64,000 nucleotides of DNA from assembly GCF_040364665.1 (NCBI RefSeq), contig NZ_BAABWX010000005.1, positions 124,001 through 188,000 on the forward strand, in the 5' to 3' direction. The first letter of the stretch is position 1. Each line of letters begins with the position of its first letter. The DNA comes from Cognatishimia sp. WU-CL00825. Its GTDB lineage: Bacteria > Pseudomonadota > Alphaproteobacteria > Rhodobacterales > Rhodobacteraceae. The position numbers and the translations under genes were made by a program. Below, in pieces: positions 39,559-51,093 of this stretch. Under the pieces are notes generated by a model, which was not told the origin of the DNA, searched no databases, and saw only the letters and a list, made by a program, of their open reading frames with translations.

Positions 39559-40953
39559 CTAATTCACTATGATCTCCGGCCCCATCAAGGCATTCGGCAA
39601 TGTGGTAGACAGCGCCGGTATATAGGTGACCATGATCAAGAAGATGAACAGCACACCCAGGAAAGGCAGCGCGGCGCGGACAACGCCCATCATTGGCATG
39701 CCTGCAACACCAGAGGTGACAAACAGGTTCAAGCCAACCGGTGGGGTGATCATGCCGATTTCCATGTTCACCACCATGATGATGCCCAGATGGATCGGGT
39801 CAATGCCCAGTTCAATCGCAATTGGGAACACCAGCGGAGCAACGATCACCAAGAGTCCTGATGGCTCCATGAATTGACCGCCGATCAGCAGGATGATGTT
39901 GACCACAACCAAGAACATGACGGGTCCGAAGCCAGCCGAAAGCATGGTGTTTGCCACAGCTTGCGGGATCTGTTCTTCGGTCAACACGTGTTTCAGGATC
40001 AGCGCGTTGGCGATGACAAACATCAAGGTGATGGTCAGTTTGCCTGCTTCAAACAGCGTCCGGCGTGTGTCTTCGTGAAAGAAGGCAGTGATCACAGCCA
40101 AGGGCTTTTGCATAAGCGAGGTGCGGTGACCGCCGTCCTTGGCAGCCAATGGACCCATGTCGCGGTAGATGAAACTTGCGACAAAGAAAGCATAGACCGA
40201 GGCAACGGCGGCGGCTTCGGTGGGCGTAAAGAACGCTCCGGTGACGCCGGGAATGCCATAGATGCCCACCATGATGATGACGATCAGCAACAGGCCCCAG
40301 GCCGCATCGCGGAAGCTGGTCCAGATTTCACCCCAGCCAAGCCATTCGCCCTTTGGCATATTCTTGATGCGCGCCATAACATAGATGGCCACCATCAGCA
40401 TGACCCCAGCCAGAATGCCTGGAATGACGCCAGCAAGGAACATCCGGCCAACCGACACTTCGACAGCTGCCGCATAAACCACCATCACAATCGAGGGTGG
40501 GATCAAAATGCCCAAGGTGCCCGCGTTACAGATCACACCAGCCGCGAATTCCTTGGAATAGCCAGCTTGGCGCATCGCTGCGATTACGATGGACCCAATG
40601 GCAACAACCGTGGCTGGAGAAGAGCCAGACAGGGCTGCAAACATCATGCAGGCAAAGACCCCAGAGATGGCCAGACCACCGCGTAGGTGCCCCACGCAGG
40701 CAATGGAAAAGCGAATGATGCGCTGGGCGACACCGCCGGTGGACATAAAGGAGGAGGCCAGAATGAAGAACGGGATCGCCAGCAAGGTGTAGTGGCCTTC
40801 AAAGGCCTCAAACAGGGTTTGTGCCACTGCGGCCAGAGACGTGTCGCTGAACCACAAGAGAAACAATACAGACGACATGCCCAAAGACACCGCGATCGGA
40901 ACACCGATCATCAGAAACCCAATGACCATGACAAATAGAATGATGACAGACAT
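39559..40953 (-). CDS. dctM: C4-dicarboxylate TRAP transporter large permease
   Basis: A 464-residue DctM-type permease with about 12 membrane segments and the family motifs ALSGSSPATVVAIGSIV and GTLGILIPPSIVMVVYA. It moves the substrate by sodium coupling after handover from DctP. A hydrophilic insertion at about residues 265-300 (DMGPLAAKDGGHRTSLMQKP) is longer than in many members. Its ATG shares an A with the TAA of dctQ (TAATG). Confidence 0.96.
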   Translation of the reverse strand: MSVIILFVMVIGFLMIGVPIAVSLGMSSVLFLLWFSDTSLAAVAQTLFEAFEGHYTLLAIPFFILASSFMSTGGVAQRIIRFSIACVGHLRGGLAISGVFACMMFAALSGSSPATVVAIGSIVIAAMRQAGYSKEFAAGVICNAGTLGILIPPSIVMVVYAAAVEVSVGRMFLAGVIPGILAGVMLMVAIYVMARIKNMPKGEWLGWGEIWTSFRDAAWGLLLIVIIMVGIYGIPGVTGAFFTPTEAAAVASVYAFFVASFIYRDMGPLAAKDGGHRTSLMQKPLAVITAFFHEDTRRTLFEAGKLTITLMFVIANALILKHVLTEEQIPQAVANTMLSAGFGPVMFLVVVNIILLIGGQFMEPSGLLVIVAPLVFPIAIELGIDPIHLGIIMVVNMEIGMITPPVGLNLFVTSGVAGMPMMGVVRAALPFLGVLFIFLIMVTYIPALSTTLPNALMGPEIIVN

Positions 40954-41624
40954 TAGATGTCCTCCCCGCGCTGTTCGCGGACTTCCGCAATTTCATCTTC
41001 GACTTCATGACTGGCCACAATGCGATCTGTTTGTCCGGTCCACACAGCCATACCGGCCTGCACAAAGCGAAGCAGCATCAGGGACATGGAAATAGGCAGA
41101 ACAGCATAGGGCAGCAAACGTGGTAGTTTTTCGTAGGATTCACCTTCGTTGAACACGTCTTCCATCCATTTCAGAAAACCCGGATGAGGGATGTCGTCGA
41201 CTTCGTACCAGCCTTTGGCCAGAAACTTGTCTTCAAAGCCCAAGGGGAACCAGCGGCCTTCGGTTTTTGGCAAGTTGGCAAAATTTGCCCAATAGTCCCA
41301 TGCGCCCTTGAGCAGCAAAAAGGTGAACATTATGCAGATCACAATCGAGATCAGCCCAAAAGTGCGCCGCATAGGGGCTGATACCATGTTCAAGATGGCA
41401 TCGACGCCCAGATGTGCGCCTTTTTTGACCGCATAGGATGCGCCCAACAGCACCAACCAGCCGAACATAAAGACGGTGAGTTCAAGGCCCCATAAAATGT
41501 TTGAATTAAATCCTTTGCGCGCAATCACGTTGGCAAAGGTCAGTAGTGTCATCGCGCCTAGTAGAAAGGCGATCAGGTTTTCTTCGATCTTGTCGATAAA
41601 GGATTCGCCTGGTTTCGGATGCAT
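40953..41624 (-). CDS. dctQ: C4-dicarboxylate TRAP transporter small permease
   Basis: A 223-residue DctQ-type protein with four membrane segments (LIAFLLGAMTLLTFANVIAR, LTVFMFGWLVLLGASYAVKKG, LISIVICIMFTFLLL, LLPYAVLPISMSLMLLRF). An extended periplasmic loop sits between segments three and four. ATG 41624 follows GGGAGGGGAA. Coupled to dctM by a one-base overlap and separated from dctP by a hairpin. Confidence 0.94.
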   Translation of the reverse strand: MHPKPGESFIDKIEENLIAFLLGAMTLLTFANVIARKGFNSNILWGLELTVFMFGWLVLLGASYAVKKGAHLGVDAILNMVSAPMRRTFGLISIVICIMFTFLLLKGAWDYWANFANLPKTEGRWFPLGFEDKFLAKGWYEVDDIPHPGFLKWMEDVFNEGESYEKLPRLLPYAVLPISMSLMLLRFVQAGMAVWTGQTDRIVASHEVEDEIAEVREQRGEDI

Positions 41625-41704: not shown

Positions 41705-42709
41705 TTACATCGCGTTGTTGATGGCTTGCGCCGCGTCGATGTTGTCTTGTCCCACGTCGTCAGCAAATTGCGCCCAGACCGGCTTCATGGTTTCAACCCA
41801 TGAGGCACGCTGTTCAGCGGTCAATTCACGGACAACGCCGCCGGCATCAATCACAGATTGGCGCGCGGCTTGGTTCACAGCAAAGGATTCGCTGTTCCGG
41901 GTTGCGGTGACCTCGTCCAGAATCGACAGGAATTGATCCCGCACATCTGCGTCCAGACCGTCCAGCCATTCGCCAGAGGTCACAACCAGATAGTCGATGA
42001 TCCCGTGGTTGGTTTCTGTGATACCATCCTGAACTTCGAAGAATTTCTTGCCATAGATGTTGGACCAGGTGTTTTCCTGACCATCCACAACGCCCTGTTG
42101 CAAGGCACCGTATACTTCGGAGAAGGCCATTTTTTGTGGGCTGCCACCGATGGCTTCCATTTGGGCCACAAGCACGTCAGAAGACTGCACGCGGAAGCGC
42201 AAGCCATTGGCATCTGTTGGCTCAAGCAAAGGTGTGTTGGCAGACATTTGCTTCATGCCGTTGTGCCAGAAGGCCAAGCCCTGAAGGCCACGGCGTTTCA
42301 TGCTGTCTTTCATCGCCTGCCCTGCGTCAGAGGCCTGGAACGCGTCAACTGCGTTGATGTCTTCGAACATGAAGGGCAGATCAAACAGACGGAATTTCTT
42401 GGTGAAGGCTTCAAACTTGGAAAGTGATGGTGCGGCCAGTTGAACGTCACCTTGCAGCAAAGCTTCGAGTACTTTGTTGTCGTCATAAAGCGTCGAGTTG
42501 CCGAACACTTCCATGCAGGCTTTGCCGTTCATCTCGTCGTTGACGCGCTGTTGCAGCAAAGAGGCGGCGATGCCTTTTGGGTGCTTGTCGGTGTTTGTAA
42601 CGTGGCTGAATTTGATAACAACTTCGCCGGCATCACAGGCATCGCTCGCTTGAGCAACGCCAGCGCCCAGCGCAACGGATGTGGCAAGTGCAGCAGTGAT
42701 AAATTTCAT
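41705..42709 (-). CDS. dctP: C4-dicarboxylate TRAP substrate-binding protein
   Basis: A 334-residue periplasmic protein with signal peptide MKFITAALATSVALGAGVAQA and the DctP pattern IKFSHVTNTDKHPKGIAA, LFDLPFMFEDINAVDAF, FWHNGMKQMSANTPL, GLRFRVQSSDVL (with the carboxylate-binding Arg) and GVVDGQENTWSNIY. It resembles Rhodobacter DctP, which binds malate, succinate and fumarate. Start follows AGGGAGGAAAGATC. Upstream lies the 243-base region with two palindromes next to dctD. Confidence 0.95.
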   Translation of the reverse strand: MKFITAALATSVALGAGVAQASDACDAGEVVIKFSHVTNTDKHPKGIAASLLQQRVNDEMNGKACMEVFGNSTLYDDNKVLEALLQGDVQLAAPSLSKFEAFTKKFRLFDLPFMFEDINAVDAFQASDAGQAMKDSMKRRGLQGLAFWHNGMKQMSANTPLLEPTDANGLRFRVQSSDVLVAQMEAIGGSPQKMAFSEVYGALQQGVVDGQENTWSNIYGKKFFEVQDGITETNHGIIDYLVVTSGEWLDGLDADVRDQFLSILDEVTATRNSESFAVNQAARQSVIDAGGVVRELTAEQRASWVETMKPVWAQFADDVGQDNIDAAQAINNAM

Positions 42710-42897
42710 GATCTTTCCTCCCTAGGTGATCCAAAATTTCGATTGAGGTCTCGTAGAACCCTCGCAACCCTAGAGGGACCCATGACGAAAATGTGATCAA
42801 GGGGAAGTGCGGAAAATATTCAAGATCTTTGAAAACGTATATTTAATAGGCACTTATGAAGCTTATTGCTCGGGCCAATTATGAACCTGATCCGCAA

Positions 42898-42917
42898 GTG
42901 TGCGAACCTTCGCACAC
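42898..42917. promoter_or_regulatory. Palindrome 1 upstream of dctP (probable DctD site)
   Basis: GTGTGCGAA and its exact complement TTCGCACAC are separated by CC. It shares the core TGTGCGRA-N2-TYCGCACA with palindrome 2; centres are 32 bp apart, three helical turns. It lies about 190 bases upstream of dctP. Confidence 0.75.
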
Positions 42918-42928
42918 GCCATCTGGGG

Positions 42929-42950
42929 GCTGTGCGGATTTCCGCACAGC
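42929..42950. promoter_or_regulatory. Palindrome 2 upstream of dctP (probable DctD site)
   Basis: GCTGTGCGGA and TCCGCACAGC are perfect 10-bp arms around TT, just after the dctD stop codon. No T-run follows, so a terminator is unlikely. The shared core with palindrome 1 and the helical spacing suggest two dimers bound on one face of the DNA. Confidence 0.75.
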
Positions 42951-42952
42951 TG

Positions 42953-44176
42953 TTAGCGGTATAACTCTGCGCGAATCTCGTGACGTGCCAATTTATCATA
43001 GAAAGTTTTGCGTGGCAGCTTGAGCGCTTTGGCTGCCTCGGTGGCATTGCCCGCGTGGCGTTTTAGGGCCGAGGTGAGCAACGAGCGTTCCACTCGGGCC
43101 ATTTGTTCGCTAAGGCCCAATTCTTCGGATGGGTCGCCATCATGGACACCCAGCACAAAGCGCGTGGCGGTGTTCATCAGGGCGCGGGCATTGCCGGGCC
43201 AGTCCTGAGCCATCAAGTCAGCCACCACATCCGGGGTCACCTCTGGTTCGGCCACACCTGTTTGTGTGCTGGCGATGCGCACATAGGCGCGAAACAGCAC
43301 CGGAATATCTTCGGGGCGCTCTTTCAGAGTTGGAATACGCACCTGCATGACATTGAGACGGTAAAACAGTTCTGCATTCAGCCGCCCCTGTTGCATCTCA
43401 AGTTGTAGATCGCGGTAGGAGCCGGCAATCACCCGCGTTTGGCTGTTGGTTTCCAGCCGGTTGAGCAGTGCAAATTGCACATCCGGGGCCATGGCGGCTA
43501 TTTCATCCAAAAACAAGGAACCGCCCGCGGCCCCATCCAAAGCAGCGACCAGCGCATCTTTGGTCAGACCGGCGGCGGATAGTTTTTCAAATGGGGCAGT
43601 GGTGCCATCGGCCAAAAGGTGAATGACCTCGGCGACTTTTGCGTTGCCAGAACCCGGTGCCCCCAGAACCAGAACATCCGTGCCAGCGGCGGCCGCACGA
43701 CGGGCTTGATTGCGTAGGGTTTCGGCCTGTTCTGAATGGCCAAACAGCATGCGCGCGGCGGCATCGCCGCTTTCCAACTGCTGGCGCATTTGCCGGTTCT
43801 CTAAAACCATAGATCGCGCCCGCACAGCCCCCGCGACCACCGCAAGGAAATCTTTGGTCTCGCAGGGTTTCTCTAGAAAATTAAACGCGCCGGACTGAAC
43901 GCCGCGCACCGCCATTGGGATGTCGCCCTCGCCGGTCAGCAAGACCACGGGCAGATCGGGGTCCACGGTTTTTGTAAAGGCCAAGAGCGCAAAGCCATCT
44001 TTGCCCGGCATGCGGATATCGCTGACAATCACCCCGTCCAGCGCGGCTGAAATATGGTCTTTGGCTTCGATATAGCTGCCCGCAGTGATCACGTCGTAAT
44101 CGGCCAGCATGAGGGTTTGGCTAAGCGCGTCGCGCACGGCGCGGTCGTCATCCACCAATAAGACTGTATTGGTCAT
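42953..44176 (-). CDS. dctD: DctD-type response regulator with degenerate AAA+ domain
   Basis: A 407-residue regulator: receiver domain with phospho-acceptor D53 (VSDIRMPG), T81 and K103; a sigma-54-activator-like AAA+ domain (about 140-345); and a Fis-type helix-turn-helix (GNATEAAKALKLPRKTFYDKL). The AAA+ domain is abnormal. Walker A reads GAPGSGNA (172-179) with Asn178 in place of the Lys, and the stretch that should hold GAFTGA is missing, so about 20 residues are lost before Walker B (GGSLFLDEI, 218-226). It probably cannot hydrolyse ATP or remodel sigma-54 holoenzyme. It lies two bases after dctB and beside dctP, so control of dctPQM is very likely. Confidence 0.93.
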   Translation of the reverse strand: MTNTVLLVDDDRAVRDALSQTLMLADYDVITAGSYIEAKDHISAALDGVIVSDIRMPGKDGFALLAFTKTVDPDLPVVLLTGEGDIPMAVRGVQSGAFNFLEKPCETKDFLAVVAGAVRARSMVLENRQMRQQLESGDAAARMLFGHSEQAETLRNQARRAAAAGTDVLVLGAPGSGNAKVAEVIHLLADGTTAPFEKLSAAGLTKDALVAALDGAAGGSLFLDEIAAMAPDVQFALLNRLETNSQTRVIAGSYRDLQLEMQQGRLNAELFYRLNVMQVRIPTLKERPEDIPVLFRAYVRIASTQTGVAEPEVTPDVVADLMAQDWPGNARALMNTATRFVLGVHDGDPSEELGLSEQMARVERSLLTSALKRHAGNATEAAKALKLPRKTFYDKLARHEIRAELYR

Positions 44177-44178
44177 GC

Positions 44179-45909
44179 CTACTCCATTTCATCTGTGTGC
44201 TCAGAGCGTGTCAGTGACACGGTGAATTCAGCACCTGCGTGATCGCGGTTGCGTCCGGTGATATTGCCGCCAAAACTTTGCACCAGACCATAAGAGATCG
44301 AAAGCCCAAGGCCCATGCCTTCGGATTGGCCGACCTCTTTGGTGGTGTAGAACGGGTCAAAGATCTTGTCAGCATCATGCAGGCCCGGACCGCTGTCTGC
44401 GACAATCACCTGCACCTGTGACCCGGCGGGTTGCACGATGATATCGAGTTGTTTTTCGTCGCTTTCCGCCATGGCGTCAGCGGCGTTGCTGACAAGGTTC
44501 ATCACCACCTGTTGTAGGCGCACGTCGCCACCGCGCACCCAAATCGGGGTATCGGGCTGGGTGCGGTTCACGATCACCTGTTCTGCGTGCAGGCGCGGTT
44601 GCAACAGCTCAAACACCGCGTCGATCACCGAGGTGATGTCCACATCGGTCACCGGTTCATGCTCTTGTCGGGCAAAGGCGCGCAGGTTCTTGATGATCCG
44701 GCCCATGCGGCGCGACAATTCGCTGATGCGATCCAGATTGTTGGCAGCTTCGGCCGGGCGATCGCGGTCCAGAAATTGCACGGCGTTTTCCGCAAAAGAG
44801 CGAATGGCCATAAGCGGCTGGTTTAATTCATGGCTGATCCCGGCGGACATCTGCCCCAGGGCAGAGAGTTTACCGGCCTGCACCAGATCTGACTGGGCTT
44901 TGCGCAGGGCCTCTTCGGCCTCGCGGCGTTCGGCGATTTCATGGCGTAGATTGACGTTGGCGTTTGTCAGCTGAACGGTGCGGGCGGCCACGCGAGCTTC
45001 GAGCTGGACATTGACGGCAGAAAGGGCACGGCGGCGTTCAGCCATGAAAAACAAGAACCCGCCAAACACCAGCGAGAGCGCGGCACCCACCAAGGCCTGC
45101 AATCCAGCAAGGCGCTGGGCAGGGGCCGTCGAAATTAGCGAATGCCCGATCATGCCAATGATGGGCTGTGGCAGTTCCAGATACAGCGCATTGCTGGGCA
45201 AAAACCGTTGCCCGGTTATTTGCCATTCGGTGTGACCTGCGGTTTGGGTAACGTTGTTGGGGGCAAATTCTGCGGCTCCGGTGGTGTCTGCAAAGGTCTG
45301 ATGCAGTATTTCAGAGCGGTTGGAGACAAAGATTTGTTTTTCGGTGTCGGTAAAGAAGACCACCTGGGGGGCGCTGCGCCAATCGGATTCCTCGACCGTC
45401 TCCATATCGACCCGCACCAAAACTGCGCCCGCAGCCTGCCCGCCAATATACACGGGGGCCATAAAGGCAAAGATCCGGGTGCCGTCGTTCAGGACAGAAT
45501 GGTCAAAACCCAATGCGCCGCTTTGGGCCCGTTGAAAATGCAGGGTTTGGGCAAAACTTTGCCCCACATGAGAGGGCTGCGAGCTGGCCAGCATGTTGCC
45601 TGCGTGATCCACATAAGCAATTTCCAGCGCACCCGAAGTATCTGACATTTTCAGCAGCAAAGGTAATAGGCTGTCGGCTGTTTCGGGCTGGCGTGCGATG
45701 GACCCTACATCTGGATGATCTGCCGTCAGTACCGCGAGTTGGCGAAACCTTGCCAATTGACCGACCAAGCGGTCTGCGGCCGAGCGCAGGTAAACCTGAC
45801 CTTGTTCAGACACGGGCCCTAGGGCGGCGCGATATCCAACGCTGAAAATTCCGGCTGCAAAGGCGGCTACGACGCTGATAAGACCCAATATCGCCAAAAA
45901 CCGCCGCAA
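44179..45909 (-). CDS. dctB: C4-dicarboxylate sensor histidine kinase
   Basis: A 576-residue membrane kinase: TM1 at about 3-24, a periplasmic Cache-like sensor domain (25-265), TM2 at about 269-289, a coiled-coil linker, HisKA with His360 (ISHELNQPLMAIRSF) and an HATPase domain (NLVSNAADAM, DSGPGLHDADKIFDPFYTTK, GLGLSISYGLV). I take TTG at 45909 as start because AAGGGAG lies six bases before it and the protein then opens directly with the first membrane segment; the frame is open to 46008 but that leader is not conserved-looking. It phosphorylates DctD. Confidence 0.93.
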   Translation of the reverse strand: MRRFLAILGLISVVAAFAAGIFSVGYRAALGPVSEQGQVYLRSAADRLVGQLARFRQLAVLTADHPDVGSIARQPETADSLLPLLLKMSDTSGALEIAYVDHAGNMLASSQPSHVGQSFAQTLHFQRAQSGALGFDHSVLNDGTRIFAFMAPVYIGGQAAGAVLVRVDMETVEESDWRSAPQVVFFTDTEKQIFVSNRSEILHQTFADTTGAAEFAPNNVTQTAGHTEWQITGQRFLPSNALYLELPQPIIGMIGHSLISTAPAQRLAGLQALVGAALSLVFGGFLFFMAERRRALSAVNVQLEARVAARTVQLTNANVNLRHEIAERREAEEALRKAQSDLVQAGKLSALGQMSAGISHELNQPLMAIRSFAENAVQFLDRDRPAEAANNLDRISELSRRMGRIIKNLRAFARQEHEPVTDVDITSVIDAVFELLQPRLHAEQVIVNRTQPDTPIWVRGGDVRLQQVVMNLVSNAADAMAESDEKQLDIIVQPAGSQVQVIVADSGPGLHDADKIFDPFYTTKEVGQSEGMGLGLSISYGLVQSFGGNITGRNRDHAGAEFTVSLTRSEHTDEME

Positions 45910-46099
45910 GCTCTGCTCCCTTTTTTTGCAGAATAGAAAGCCAGCCGCGGGATTGCCACTGAAATTGCCAAGAAAATTTTTGCCTCGGTACGGGGCAACG
46001 ACCAACATGCCGATGGAACCTTGGGGCGTCTTGCACTAACGTCCAAACGCAACCACATGGGTGGGGCAAGTTGGTCACTTCTGCGCAGGGGCAGCAAGA

Positions 46100-47878
46100 A
46101 TGCGCATCGCGATAGTAGCAAGTTTTTTGGCTGGGCTTTTCCTAAGCGCAGCAACTGTGCATGCTGATGTCAGTTTTGAGGTCGTTGGCGACGACAAGGC
46201 TTTGCGCAAGGCGCTAATGGGCAATTCTGCTTTGGCCGCCATCGAGACGGTTAGTGCCGTAGCGCCCCAGGATCTGGTGGCCACGGCGCAGGCCGATTAT
46301 CGCAAGCTTGCGGCCACCCTTTATGAGCGGGGATATTTTGGGCCCGTCATTTCCATTACACTTGATGGGCGTGAAGCCAGCAATGTGTCGCCGTTTAGAC
46401 AAGTCGCGCGCTATGACAGCGTGCGGATATCCGTAGACGCTGGGCGCAAGTATCAGCTGGGGAAAGTGTCCATTGCGCCAGTGGTGCCTGGCACGGATCT
46501 GCCAGAAGGGTTTGTGGCTGGGGCCGAGGCATCGACCTTGATCCTGCGCAAAACGGCAGAAACGGCGATTGATGCTTGGCGCGGCATGGGGCATCCAAAA
46601 GCCAAGATTGCGCGGCAGTCGATACGGGCCAATGCAGCAAAGGCCGTGTTGAACGCGGATCTGCAAGTTGCGCCGGGACCCCAAGCTCGCTTTGGCCAGT
46701 TGATGCCCCAAGGCCAAAGCCGGATGCGGGCCGAGCGGATTGATGCGATTGGTGGTTTGCCCCGTAACGCGCAATATCACCCCGACATTGTCACACGTGT
46801 GGCAGAACGGCTGCGCGACAGCGGAGGCTTTGCCTCGGTGGCGTTGACCGAGGGCGATGTGGCCGCAGATGGTATGATGGATGTCACGGCGGTGTTGGTC
46901 GAAGCCCCGCTTCGGCGGTTTGGTATTGGCGCAGAGCTGACCTCTGACGAGGGGCTGGGTCTGAGCGGTTTCTGGTTGCATCGCAATCTTTTTGGCGGGG
47001 CCGAGCGGTTGCGGTTTGATGCCGAGGTCACGGGGATTGGGGGCAACAGCGGCGGAGTAGACGCTGATTTTGGCGTGACTTATGCCCGTCCGGCAACCCT
47101 TACACCGGATACAAATTTGCAGATTGGCGCGCGGGTGACCCGACTGGATGAACCCACATTTTTGCAAGAAAGTGCCGAGTTGTCGTTTGGTTTTGAACAC
47201 CGGTTTTCCAAAACCAAAACCGGGTCAGTTTTTGCTGAAATTGCCCGATCTAAGATCACTGATAATTTCTCGACCCGGCACGTGACGCTGGTGTCGTTGC
47301 CGTCCACTATGGTGTGGGATAAGCGCGATGATCGGTTGGATGCACGGCAAGGCTGGTATCTTGCCACCGGGGCGCAGCCCTTTTTGATTTATGCTGACAG
47401 TGGAGGGCTGCGCGCAACCGTGGACGCGCGCGCCTATCGTGCCTTGGGGGCCAGCGGCAAAACTCGGCTGGCCGGGCGGGTGCAATTGGGCACCGTGGCC
47501 GGCGGATCTATCGGGTCTTTGCCACCGGACTGGCTGTTTTATTCTGGTGGGCCAGACACTGTGCGCGGGCTGAGCTATCAGTCACTGGGGGCGCTGCAAG
47601 GCGGCGTGGCCACTGGCGGGCGCAGTTTTGCGGGTGCTTCGTTTGAAATGCGCCACGACATTACCGGACCCTGGGGGGCCGCAGTTTTTGCAGACGCTGG
47701 GATGATTTCGGCGGGGGCTGGCTGGACCGGCAGCAGTGATTGGCATGCGGGTGTGGGCATTGGTGCGCGGTATAATACGCCAATTGGGGCCATTCGCGTT
47801 GATGTGGCCACCCCGGTGCGCAGCCCAACTGCCAGCAACAATCTGGCCTTTTATATCGGAATAGGACAGTCGTTTTGA
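46100..47878 (+). CDS. tamA: Outer-membrane translocation protein TamA (Omp85 family)
   Basis: A 592-residue Omp85-type protein. Signal peptide MRIAIVASFLAGLFLSAATVHA; POTRA-like repeats to about residue 270; C-terminal 16-strand barrel with GPDTVRGLSYQSLG near the conserved loop and the terminal FYIGIGQSF ending in Phe for BAM insertion. With TamB it helps move or insert certain outer-membrane proteins and has been linked to phospholipid transport. ATG 46100 gives the signal peptide; the frame is open to 46061. The stop overlaps the start of tamB. Confidence 0.93.
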   Translation: MRIAIVASFLAGLFLSAATVHADVSFEVVGDDKALRKALMGNSALAAIETVSAVAPQDLVATAQADYRKLAATLYERGYFGPVISITLDGREASNVSPFRQVARYDSVRISVDAGRKYQLGKVSIAPVVPGTDLPEGFVAGAEASTLILRKTAETAIDAWRGMGHPKAKIARQSIRANAAKAVLNADLQVAPGPQARFGQLMPQGQSRMRAERIDAIGGLPRNAQYHPDIVTRVAERLRDSGGFASVALTEGDVAADGMMDVTAVLVEAPLRRFGIGAELTSDEGLGLSGFWLHRNLFGGAERLRFDAEVTGIGGNSGGVDADFGVTYARPATLTPDTNLQIGARVTRLDEPTFLQESAELSFGFEHRFSKTKTGSVFAEIARSKITDNFSTRHVTLVSLPSTMVWDKRDDRLDARQGWYLATGAQPFLIYADSGGLRATVDARAYRALGASGKTRLAGRVQLGTVAGGSIGSLPPDWLFYSGGPDTVRGLSYQSLGALQGGVATGGRSFAGASFEMRHDITGPWGAAVFADAGMISAGAGWTGSSDWHAGVGIGARYNTPIGAIRVDVATPVRSPTASNNLAFYIGIGQSF

Positions 47879-50800
47879 GGCAGGTTTTTGTGATCTTGGC
47901 GGTGCTGCTTTGGGCTCCAATGGCTTTGGCACAGCAAGAGGCTCAAGAAGGCCAGTCGCGCATTGTCGCCTTTCTAGAGGAGGCTTTGTCAGATGGTGCA
48001 CGCACGGTGCGTATTCAGGGCTTTAAGGGCGCGTTGAGTTCTTCGGCAGAGCTGGATTTGCTGACGATTTCTGACGCTAACGGCGTTTGGTTTAAGCTAG
48101 AACAAGCCAAATTGGTCTGGCAACGCTCGGCACTGCTGCGCGGGGCATTGAACATCGAAAAGATATCCGCAAAGCGCATCGAGCTGATCCGCACGCCTGT
48201 GCAAAGCGCTGCAGCGCCAACCCCAGAAGCAACCCCGTTTGCCTTGCCTGATTTGCCTGTCTCAGTGGCGCTGGGCGCGTTGGAATTTGCTGAAATCAAA
48301 CTTGGGGACTCGCTGTTTGGTTTGGCGGCAACCGTGTCTGCGCGTGGCAATGCCAGCCTTAAAGATGGGGCGGGATCTGCGCGATTGGTGCTGACGCGGC
48401 TGGACGGGCCAAGCGGCACGTTTGATGTGGCGGCGACGTTTGACAATGTTGCGCGTGCCTTGGATTTGAACCTGAACGTCAGCGAAGATAGGGGCGGGGT
48501 GATTGCCACTCTGATTGATTTACCCGGCAAGCCCGCGCTGGAGGTAACCGCGCTGGGCAAGGGGCCCATCGATGATTTGGGCATTGACCTAAAGGTTGCA
48601 ACAGATGGGGTAGCGCGGTTTGGCGGCCGGATTGAAACCCAACGCACAGAAACCGAGGCACGGGTGTTTCGTGCGGACCTATCGGGCGATCTGAGCGCGC
48701 TTTTTCTGCCGGAATATCAAAACTTTTTTGGGGATGATGTTGCCCTGTCGGCGCGCGCATTGCGCGCTGCGGATGGTGCGCTGGATGTCAGCACGCTTAC
48801 GGTTTCCACGGCGGCGCTAGATATCAGCGGCTCGTTGGCGCTTGCACCAGGGGGGCAGCCAAAGCGAATAGCGCTGAACGGCAATCTGGGTCAGGGTGAC
48901 CGGTCAAAAACACGGCTTCCTATTGCGGGACAAGCGATTGACGTCACTTCTGCGCAACTTGCGTTGAACTATGATGCCGCCCGCGGCGATGCGGTGTATG
49001 GCGTGCTGCGCTTTGATGCTCTGGAAACGCCGGACCTGGAAATTGCGAGCGGCCAGCTGCGACTGGACGGACGGTTGGACCCGGTTGATGCCTCTGAACT
49101 TTCGGCCAGGGTTTCGGCTCAGCTGGCGGGATTTCAACCACAAGACAGCAAATTGGCATCCGCGTTTGGGCCCAATCTGGATGTGTCGTTTCAGGCGGAC
49201 TGGCAAAGGGGGGGGCCATTGCATCTTGGCGCGCTCGCGCTGCGCGGCCAGACGCTGAGTGTTACCGGGGATGCGGAAATTCTGACAGCGGATCGCAAGA
49301 TCGCGCTGACCACCTCACTTTCTGGCACGGTGCAAGACCTTGCTGCTTTTGCAGAGCTGAGCGGCATGGCGCTGGCAGGGTCCCTGAAGATGGACCTGAC
49401 CGCCGAAGCAGAGCTTTTGTCCGGAGCGTTTCAGGCCGATCTTGCGGCGACAGGGCAGGACTTGGCGATTGGCCAAGCGATGGCTGATAAAATGCTGCGT
49501 GGCTCAAGCCAGCTGACGCTTGCGGTGGCGCGGGATCACACTGGGGTGCAGTTAAAGTCACTGGCTGTTGAAAATCCATCGCTGTCGGTCACTGCACAGG
49601 GGGCCGTTTCGTCTGACGATGGGGCCTTGCATGTGAAAGCCCACCTGAATGATGCCGGACAGATCAGCACAGCTTTGGCGGGGGCGTTGTCGCTGGAGGC
49701 GGATTTGAACCGGGATGCGGCAGATGCCGCTTGGGTGCTAGATGCAAATGCGCAGGGAATTGCCGGATTGCAGGCACAAGTTAACGGGCAAGTGGGGTTG
49801 CCACAGGGGGCTGTGGCGCTGGATGTGTCAGGCACTGCACCTTTGGCGCTTGGCGACAGCTTTATTGCGCCCCGGTCTTTGCGTGGTGCTGCGCAGTTTG
49901 ATTTGGCAATCAATGGGCCGCCCACGCTGGGGGCTGTCAGCGGGCAAATACAGACCAGAAATGCGCGTCTGTTTGATCCGCAATTGGGCACTTCGCTTGA
50001 AAACCTGAACTTGCAGGCAGATCTGGCAGGCGCACAGGCGCGTATTCAAGCCAAAGGATCCGCCCGCGCCGGGGGCACTTTTTCCGCCGAAGGTTGGGTG
50101 GATCTGGCAAAACCCGGGCTGCCGGGGCAGATTGATATCGGGTTTCAAGACCTGCAATATGTCAGCGCGGCCTTTGAGACCGAGATCGCCACAGGTGACT
50201 TGCGCTTGGCCGGTCCATTGGCCACCAACAGTCAGATAACCGGCGTTCTACGCCTGAAGCAAACCGACATCATGCTTGACGATCTGTCCTCTGGTGGGGC
50301 GGAACCCATTCCCGACATCCAGTTTACCGGGCAAAGTGCCGCGCAAATTGCGACGCGCAAAAAGGCGGGATTGATCAAGAGGCCCTCTGGCTCTCGTGCA
50401 ACGCGGGTTGCTTTGGACGTGTCGGTGCAGGCCCCCAGTCGCATTTTTGTGCGCGGCAAGGGGTTGGATGTCGAGCTTGGCGGGGCCATTCGCCTGGGTG
50501 GCACAACCGACGACCTCGTGCCTTCGGGGGGCTTTGATTTGATCCGTGGTCGGTTTTCGCTGCAGGGGCAACGCTTTGATGTAGACGAAGCCTCTGTACG
50601 GTTGCGCGGCAGTTTTGATCCCTATATTCGCATTGTGTCCAGCGCATCAGCGGCCAATACCCGGATTACGCTGACGCTGGAGGGACCGGTGTCTGCCCCG
50701 GAATTATCGCTGACATCTGTCCCAAGCTTGCCGGAAGATGAAATTCTGGCGCGGCTATTGTTTGGACGTTCCGCTGCAAAGCTTTCACCGGTGCAGGCGC

Positions 50801-51093
50801 TACAGCTTGTCGACACCATTTCCAGTCTGGCTGGGGGGAAAACCCTGACCAGCGGCTTGCGCAAATCTTTGGGGGTTGATGATTTTGACCTGAGTACTGA
50901 TGAAACGGGTCAGGCCCAACTGCGGCTGGGGCGTTACATTTCTGAAAACGCCTATTCCAATGTCGAATTGGATGGCAACGGCGATGTCGAGATTCAGTTG
51001 AACTTTGATGTATCGCCCAATCTGACCCTGCGCGGGCGGGTCAACAGCCAGGGGCAAAGCGGCGTGGGTGTCTATTTGGAGCGGGATTATTGA
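47875..51093 (+). CDS. tamB: Translocation and assembly module protein TamB
   Basis: A 1072-residue periplasm-spanning AsmA-like protein. It has an N-terminal signal anchor (MRQVFVILAVLLWAPMALA), long repeats of beta-strand segments, and the conserved C-terminal TamB domain (DUF490) with APELSLTSVPSLPEDEILARLLFGRS, VQALQLVDTISSLAGG and the terminal GRVNSQGQSGVGVYLERDY. It spans from the inner membrane to TamA. The TTG at 47875 overlaps the tamA TGA. It is shorter than the E. coli protein (about 1260), mostly in the repeat region. Confidence 0.93.
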   Translation: MRQVFVILAVLLWAPMALAQQEAQEGQSRIVAFLEEALSDGARTVRIQGFKGALSSSAELDLLTISDANGVWFKLEQAKLVWQRSALLRGALNIEKISAKRIELIRTPVQSAAAPTPEATPFALPDLPVSVALGALEFAEIKLGDSLFGLAATVSARGNASLKDGAGSARLVLTRLDGPSGTFDVAATFDNVARALDLNLNVSEDRGGVIATLIDLPGKPALEVTALGKGPIDDLGIDLKVATDGVARFGGRIETQRTETEARVFRADLSGDLSALFLPEYQNFFGDDVALSARALRAADGALDVSTLTVSTAALDISGSLALAPGGQPKRIALNGNLGQGDRSKTRLPIAGQAIDVTSAQLALNYDAARGDAVYGVLRFDALETPDLEIASGQLRLDGRLDPVDASELSARVSAQLAGFQPQDSKLASAFGPNLDVSFQADWQRGGPLHLGALALRGQTLSVTGDAEILTADRKIALTTSLSGTVQDLAAFAELSGMALAGSLKMDLTAEAELLSGAFQADLAATGQDLAIGQAMADKMLRGSSQLTLAVARDHTGVQLKSLAVENPSLSVTAQGAVSSDDGALHVKAHLNDAGQISTALAGALSLEADLNRDAADAAWVLDANAQGIAGLQAQVNGQVGLPQGAVALDVSGTAPLALGDSFIAPRSLRGAAQFDLAINGPPTLGAVSGQIQTRNARLFDPQLGTSLENLNLQADLAGAQARIQAKGSARAGGTFSAEGWVDLAKPGLPGQIDIGFQDLQYVSAAFETEIATGDLRLAGPLATNSQITGVLRLKQTDIMLDDLSSGGAEPIPDIQFTGQSAAQIATRKKAGLIKRPSGSRATRVALDVSVQAPSRIFVRGKGLDVELGGAIRLGGTTDDLVPSGGFDLIRGRFSLQGQRFDVDEASVRLRGSFDPYIRIVSSASAANTRITLTLEGPVSAPELSLTSVPSLPEDEILARLLFGRSAAKLSPVQALQLVDTISSLAGGKTLTSGLRKSLGVDDFDLSTDETGQAQLRLGRYISENAYSNVELDGNGDVEIQLNFDVSPNLTLRGRVNSQGQSGVGVYLERDY

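Follow-up and report, generated by a model that had tools for sequence, protein, structure and literature searches.

The window analysed here, a stretch of 64,000 nucleotides from Cognatishimia sp. WU-CL00825, carries on its minus strand a set of genes in the order dctB-dctD-dctP-dctQ-dctM. The stop codon of dctB, which encodes a sensor histidine kinase (positions 44179–46008), lies two bases from the start of dctD (42953–44176). The 407-residue DctD protein consists of a receiver, a remnant of an AAA+ domain and a Fis-type helix-turn-helix (HTH), and Pfam recognizes Response_reg, Sigma54_activat, AAA_lid_14 and HTH_8 domains in it, the best stretch of the Sigma54_activat match covering profile positions 89–167. 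Downstream of dctD lie dctP (41705–42709), the presumed target gene, which encodes a TRAP transporter binding protein, and dctQ (40953–41624), both identified by profile matches, and dctM (39559–40953), named from its position, length and sequence likeness, without a profile scan. At this locus DctD is paired with a DctB-type kinase and with dicarboxylate transporter genes. On the opposite strand, Omp85-family and TamB genes (46061–51093, plus strand), a TamAB-like pair by likeness, adjoin dctB.

Alignment of DctD with E. coli NtrC and AtoC placed Asn178 (43643–43645, minus strand, as are all features of this locus given below) at the position of the catalytic Lys in a degenerate Walker A motif, GAPGSGNA (residues 172–179, 43640–43663, from translation and alignment). 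It is followed, at the Walker A +2 position, by Lys180 (43637–43639), which is specific to the clade described below. The L1 loop and the pre-sensor I (L2) loop are the parts of these proteins that touch sigma-54. In a MAFFT alignment L1, which carries the GAFTGA motif, is missing at Leu209/Val210 (43547–43552), a deficit of 19 residues compared with E. coli NtrC and with 4l4u, a solved NtrC-family regulator; the pre-sensor I loop is missing at Thr243/Asn244 (43445–43450, alignment), a deficit of 12 residues compared with the same two proteins. Asn267 (43376–43378) occupies the position of the first arginine finger, which is the Arg of FREDL in NtrC. Walker B (SLFLDE), the second finger Arg, the sensor II Arg, the HTH and the receiver residues are intact, and the phospho-acceptor of the receiver is Asp53 (44018–44020). 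The earlier note had claimed an Asn in place of the Walker A Lys, a deficit of about 20 residues in the GAFTGA stretch and the retention of Walker B, the receiver and the HTH, all of which the alignments bore out. Its further claim that the arginine-finger region is kept holds for the region and for the second Arg, but not for the first finger. The loss of the pre-sensor I loop and of that finger, together with the paired operator and the sister clade without Walker B described below, go beyond what the note listed.

Using window DctD as the query, we searched a family sample of 199 genomes, an even draw from the larger group of the window's family in which the relatives with names are mainly Rhodobacteraceae and roseobacters. 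Two search rounds gave 110 DctD-like loci (30 + 80) for alignment. Ninety of them, one per genome and 52–64% identical to window DctD, form a group of compact DctD proteins that we call clade A. The Walker A Lys, GAFTGA and the first finger Arg are each found in 0/90 of these loci. The Lys position is instead filled by Ile (47), Thr (24), Val (11), Asn (3), Leu (3), Met (1) or Ser (1), and the +2 position by Lys in 89 and Arg in one. Asp53 is conserved in 88/90 loci, the other two lacking coverage; the second finger Arg is present in 73/90, and Walker B has its Asp in 86/90 and its Glu in 76/90. A second set, taken from named genomes, comprised the best 80 of 521 confirmed relatives and is thus biased to close ones, with possible genome overlap with the first; its genera include Ruegeria, Roseovarius, Sulfitobacter, Celeribacter, Phaeobacter, Leisingera and Salipiger. 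Here the counts were 0/80 for the Walker A Lys, GAFTGA and the first finger Arg and 80/80 for the +2 Lys. Because the Lys and GAFTGA are missing from all 90 orthologous loci, their loss is neither chance nor sequencing error. As to whether both losses are fixed across Rhodobacterales, they are so in clade A, but the Lys persists in other DctD-like clades of the same family.

Dividing mean dN by mean dS among the named loci gave 0.073 (receiver), 0.084 (AAA+ remnant) and 0.043 (HTH), dN/dS values which are rough because many dS estimates exceeded 1. They derive from 11 disjoint pairs of 80–97% identity, of which 9, 11 and 10, respectively, were usable. The AAA+ remnant is therefore maintained by purifying selection, about as strong as that on the receiver. 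One clade A locus (L108, genome G008) has a stop inside dctD; most of the length of its dctB and dctP is still matched, and its operator pair is intact.

A quick tree of 65 rows, including 22 of the 90 clade A rows and rooted on four outgroup rows, grouped the clade of window DctD with Sinorhizobium meliloti DctD, and not with NtrC, NtrX or AtoC; the branch of 61 DctD-like rows that includes both has an SH-aLRT value of 99. Two further groups lie close to clade A. Clade B comprises seven loci (L114–L118, L126 and L127) in which Walker B is lost (SLKNLE type, with Lys for Asp in 7/7), both finger Arg residues and L1 are absent, the Walker A Lys is kept in 6/7, with Arg in the remaining one, and dctP is divergent from dctB. 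Two intermediates (L111 and L112) possess the Lys, the fingers and Walker B, and GAFTGA is absent from both. Support was 99 for clade A, 100 for clade B and 98 for A, B and the intermediates together, the tree giving no order among the three. The simplest reading of these sequences would be that the sigma-54 loop was lost first and that two separate breaks of the motor followed, one in Walker A and one in Walker B. The 11 full-length loci of class C have both Walker motifs, and the fourth residue of GAFTGA is Pro in nine, Ala in one and Thr in one. GAFPGA, GSFPGA or GAFAGA replaces GAFTGA in L119–L125, L128, L129 and L131, which come from genomes with and without rpoN. The Pro substitution fits Francke et al. 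2011 (PMC3162934), who describe ~110 relatives that depart in minor ways from GAFTGA, with Pro preferred as the fourth residue.

In the window genome (3.62 Mb, 99.15% complete) neither of the profiles used to find rpoN, PF04552 and PF04963, had a match. By our own count rpoN is present in 62/199 family genomes, compared with 67 by E-value limit and 63 above the family cut-off; the count of 62 leaves out five genomes with short and weak matches only, G069 (just over the cut-off), G088, G101, G167 and G169, and includes the broken or split genes of G027, G024 and G023. By group, rpoN occurs in 18/90 clade A genomes, 1/2 intermediates, 0/7 of clade B and 7/11 of class C. A tight link between rpoN loss and degenerate DctD was rejected as a rule: the frequencies, 18/90 in clade A vs 44/109 in the other genomes, differ (Fisher p 0.002, kinship uncorrected), but because 18 clade A genomes have rpoN, the absence of sigma-54 is not required for this form of DctD. 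We scanned 95 dctP upstream regions (83 from clade A, 2 from intermediates, 7 from clade B and 3 from class C) with a weighted TGGCACG-N4-TTGCW model and found no clear −24/−12 site when each was compared with 100 single-base shuffles. The lowest shuffle fractions, 0.04 (L127, clade B, score 17.0) and 0.07 (L122, class C), are at chance level for 95 tests, and the best score was ≤16.5 in all 83 clade A upstream regions. In contrast, a score of 20.0, higher than in any of 1000 shuffles of the same region, was obtained for the positive control, S. meliloti dctA. The missing rpoN and the missing −24/−12 element at dctP strongly support the prediction that window DctD works without sigma-54. The earlier note had proposed this independence and had named a conserved −24/−12 promoter at the mapped dctP start as one of the observations that would overturn it; none was found in the clade A upstream regions.

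In the gap between dctD and dctP lie two copies of the palindrome TGTGCG-N6-CGCACA: a distal one, TGTGCGGAAATCCGCACA (42931–42948), 4 bp downstream of the dctD stop, and a proximal one, TGTGCGAAGGTTCGCACA (42899–42916), 32 bp from the distal copy. These are the only two exact copies in the 3.6 Mb window genome, where 15 more sites match with one mismatch, compared with 14 for a reversed control pattern. In clade A, dctB is beside dctD in 88/90 loci and dctP is downstream in 83/90 within the fetched stretch, so that gap analysis covered 83 loci, the other seven having no dctP in that stretch. The palindrome was found in 83/83 gaps, without mismatch in 69 and with one mismatch in 14, whereas shuffled gaps contained a site with up to three mismatches in 11.5/83 on average. 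A pair of palindromes spaced 32–34 bp is present in 69/83, its distal copy 223–268 bp before the dctP start. Among the named loci with dctP in reach (75 of 80), 74 have a site with ≤2 mismatches. Across the 199 genomes the exact pair pattern occurs in 74, comprising 73/90 of clade A (it is absent in 17/90) vs 1/109 of the others, with kinship uncorrected; the reversed pair pattern occurs in 4/199.

The palindrome also accompanies the gene pair outside clade A. In clade B, with its rearranged dctP-dctB locus, 6/7 loci have it, with ≤1 mismatch, where dctB is estimated to start, and both intermediates have an exact copy. Of the 11 class C loci, one (L124) carries two sites as a pair, each with one mismatch; L120, L125 and L128 have instead another palindrome, TGGGTGG-N4-CCACCCA, downstream of dctD. 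The assignment of TGTGCG-N6-CGCACA as an operator draws on conservation and co-occurrence, and we infer that DctD is its binder. Because the site follows the gene pair through rearrangement, there is good evidence for this predicted binding.

Anchoring 69 loci on the proximal palindrome revealed conserved columns at +60 to +84, an AT-rich, IHF-like stretch, and at +115 to +118 (CTTG). In the window the latter corresponds to a −35-like CTTGATC (42795–42801), spaced from the proximal operator as is usual in the clade; its position would put the transcription start near 42765. In 58/83 loci a two-box model located a [CG]TTGA-like box between +113 and +117, together with a weak and variable −10. 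STTGA occurs at +115 (±1) from the proximal site in 36/83, compared with a median of 0 elsewhere, and TTG[AC] at +116 (±1) in 49/83, compared with a median of 0.026. The best IHF-like score reached 12 or more in 56/83 gaps vs 183/1660 shuffles, and the best match lay at +59 to +61 in 36/83. However, because an exact IHF core stands at this common place in 16/83 loci only, and because an equal second peak overlaps the −35 element, a role of IHF is only a suggestion. The window's own AAN4TTGAWW element in an AT-rich tract (42818–42830) is tentative and lies off the common place of the clade. The window genome contains three HU/IHF-family genes.

With moderate confidence, we infer that DctD is a phosphorylation-controlled, ATPase-dead activator that drives sigma-70 RNA polymerase from enhancer distance. 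DctB would sense dicarboxylates and phosphorylate DctD at Asp53, a step proposed because the DctB/DctD pair is intact. DctD dimers would then occupy the two palindromes, which lie about three helical turns apart and, judged from the −35 element, some 140 and 175 bp ahead of the predicted dctP transcription start. With the Walker A Lys, both sigma-54 loops and the first arginine finger gone, the AAA+ remnant should no longer hydrolyse ATP; its most likely role would be to assemble the dimers bound at the two sites into a higher-order oligomer. At the −35 TTGA promoter DctD would make contact with sigma-70 RNA polymerase, and bending of the AT-rich, IHF-like DNA that separates the sites from the promoter might assist. 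On this reading the enhancer layout of a sigma-54 system would have persisted after the loss of sigma-54 itself and of the ATP motor.

The strongest competing explanation is a DctD that binds ATP but does not hydrolyse it. The pocket would bind ATP or another nucleotide, the +2 Lys would replace the lost one, and binding would set the active oligomer. The retention of Walker B in most of clade A is unexpected under a pure loss of nucleotide use, and the largely kept glycine loop, the Walker B Asp (86/90) and the +2 Lys (89/90 and 80/80) all agree with this rival, as does R. capsulatus NtrC, which needs ATP binding but not hydrolysis according to PMC10274813. The AAA+ domain may be only a scaffold, as the earlier note suggested, but Lys180 and the selection on the AAA+ remnant would also fit a pocket that binds a nucleotide or some other ligand. 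Nevertheless, the Lys position accepts Ile, Thr, Val, Asn, Leu, Met and Ser, and the VNCA Asn has disappeared together with the first finger Arg from 90/90 clade A loci. The sensor I Asn is absent from 87/90, although this position is His in E. coli NtrC as well, and sister clade B lost Walker B instead. We regard a nucleotide-binding activator as unlikely, if the most serious competitor of an ATPase-dead one.

We consider it less likely still that DctD is a repressor or anti-repressor, which would keep dctP expression low, either through looping or by obstructing another regulator, until released by phosphorylation. Activation by DctD is itself a prediction, and Caulobacter NtrC, likewise without GAFTGA, acts as a repressor at some sigma-70 promoters too (PMC10274813). 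However, a long and fixed distance separates the conserved upstream sites from the −35-like element, and the promoter has no conserved copy, the extra matches being weak, scattered and confined to a few loci. Furthermore, rhizobial DctBD pairs act as activators. The two remaining readings have next to no probability. A sigma-54 activator with a cryptic loop, which the Pfam Sigma54_activat match and the rpoN genes of 18/90 clade A genomes might suggest, is refuted for the window genome by the missing rpoN, the loss of both contact loops and the lack of a −24/−12 site, unless rpoN sits in the missing 1%. A decaying pseudogene, to which the several lost catalytic residues and the in-frame stop in 1/90 (L108) might point, is refuted by purifying selection on dctD: dN/dS of the AAA+ remnant is ~0.08, frames stay open at 52–64% identity and the operator is conserved with the gene. 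Our preferred reading remains that this family probably activates its target genes from afar, with no ATP motor involved.

Among solved structures, the DctD receivers 1l5y and 1qkk match the clade A profile, and the best solved match is 5m7n, a GAFTGA-less NtrC-family regulator which we take to be NtrX of Brucella and which, unlike clade A DctD, keeps the Walker A Lys. S. meliloti DctD (L237) resembles clade A in its dctB-dctD type pair, its dicarboxylate symporter neighbour and its domain order. It is 36.7% identical and has the Walker A Lys, the Walker B DE, GAFTGA and the first finger; a −24/−12 element stands upstream of its symporter gene, whereas none was found at clade A dctP. In lacking GAFTGA, window DctD belongs with NtrC-family proteins of the R. 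capsulatus NtrC/HupR type. R. capsulatus NtrC, reportedly the subject of a study by Bowman and Kranz in 1998, has tandem upstream sites. HupR has a distant palindrome with an IHF site between, its operator is a different one and its target is hydrogenase. Vibrio VpsR responds to c-di-GMP and, unlike DctD, is not part of a DctBD pair.

GAFTGA-less regulators of sigma-70 promoters are established, and PMC3162934 and PMC10274813 name R. capsulatus NtrC and HupR, TyrR and DhaR. As described in PMC10274813, R. capsulatus NtrC resembles DctD in its deleted GAFTGA; it activates sigma-70 polymerase and needs aspartyl phosphorylation. It also needs ATP binding according to the same paper, whereas window DctD has lost the Walker A Lys. 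HupR is GAFTGA-defective like DctD and is called sigma-70 dependent in PMC3162934. Caulobacter NtrC likewise lacks GAFTGA but needs its Lys, while VpsR, also GAFTGA-less, is reported to be ATP-independent (both PMC10274813). What is new here is accordingly the fixed loss of the catalytic Lys, GAFTGA-less sigma-70 activators being already known. Among the literature matches listed, in which subscription papers are thinly covered, there was neither a DctD or whole lineage without the catalytic Lys nor a report of this operator.

The widest form of the claim is one we hold at even balance: that a widespread DctD lineage has become a motor-less enhancer-binding protein, which would act from distant tandem sites, drive sigma-70 polymerase without ATP hydrolysis and use a repurposed AAA+ fold with a new, near-invariant Lys, its motor having been broken twice, in Walker A and in Walker B, after loss of the sigma-54 loop. 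The label 'sigma-54 dependent regulator' would be incorrect for this gene in Ruegeria, Sulfitobacter, Roseovarius, Phaeobacter and relatives. The loci form a graded natural series, with the motor intact, the loop lost, Walker A lost and Walker B lost, mostly on one operator type and one target operon; therefore the need of enhancer-binding proteins for an AAA+ domain can be tested in marine bacteria that are harmless. In addition, the finding supplies a strong, apparently single-target operator.

The window genome encodes five PF00158 response regulators, all without GAFTGA: DctD, an NtrC-like and an NtrX-like protein, L150 and L151. The NtrC-like, NtrX-like and DctBD-like labels are given by likeness, and three weaker PF00158 matches (L008–L010, 21–24 bits) fall outside the five. 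The NtrC-like protein keeps its Walker A Lys, in contrast to DctD of the same genome. L150 (G000:C1:746000-756500) belongs to a third DctBD-like pair, has ED for the Walker B DE and has as neighbours a glutamine amidotransferase-domain gene and an RNase E/G gene, with no transporter. L151 (G000:C9:33000-42000) belongs to a second, GAFTGA-less DctBD-like pair, next to which Pfam identifies DctP and DctM of a further TRAP transporter.
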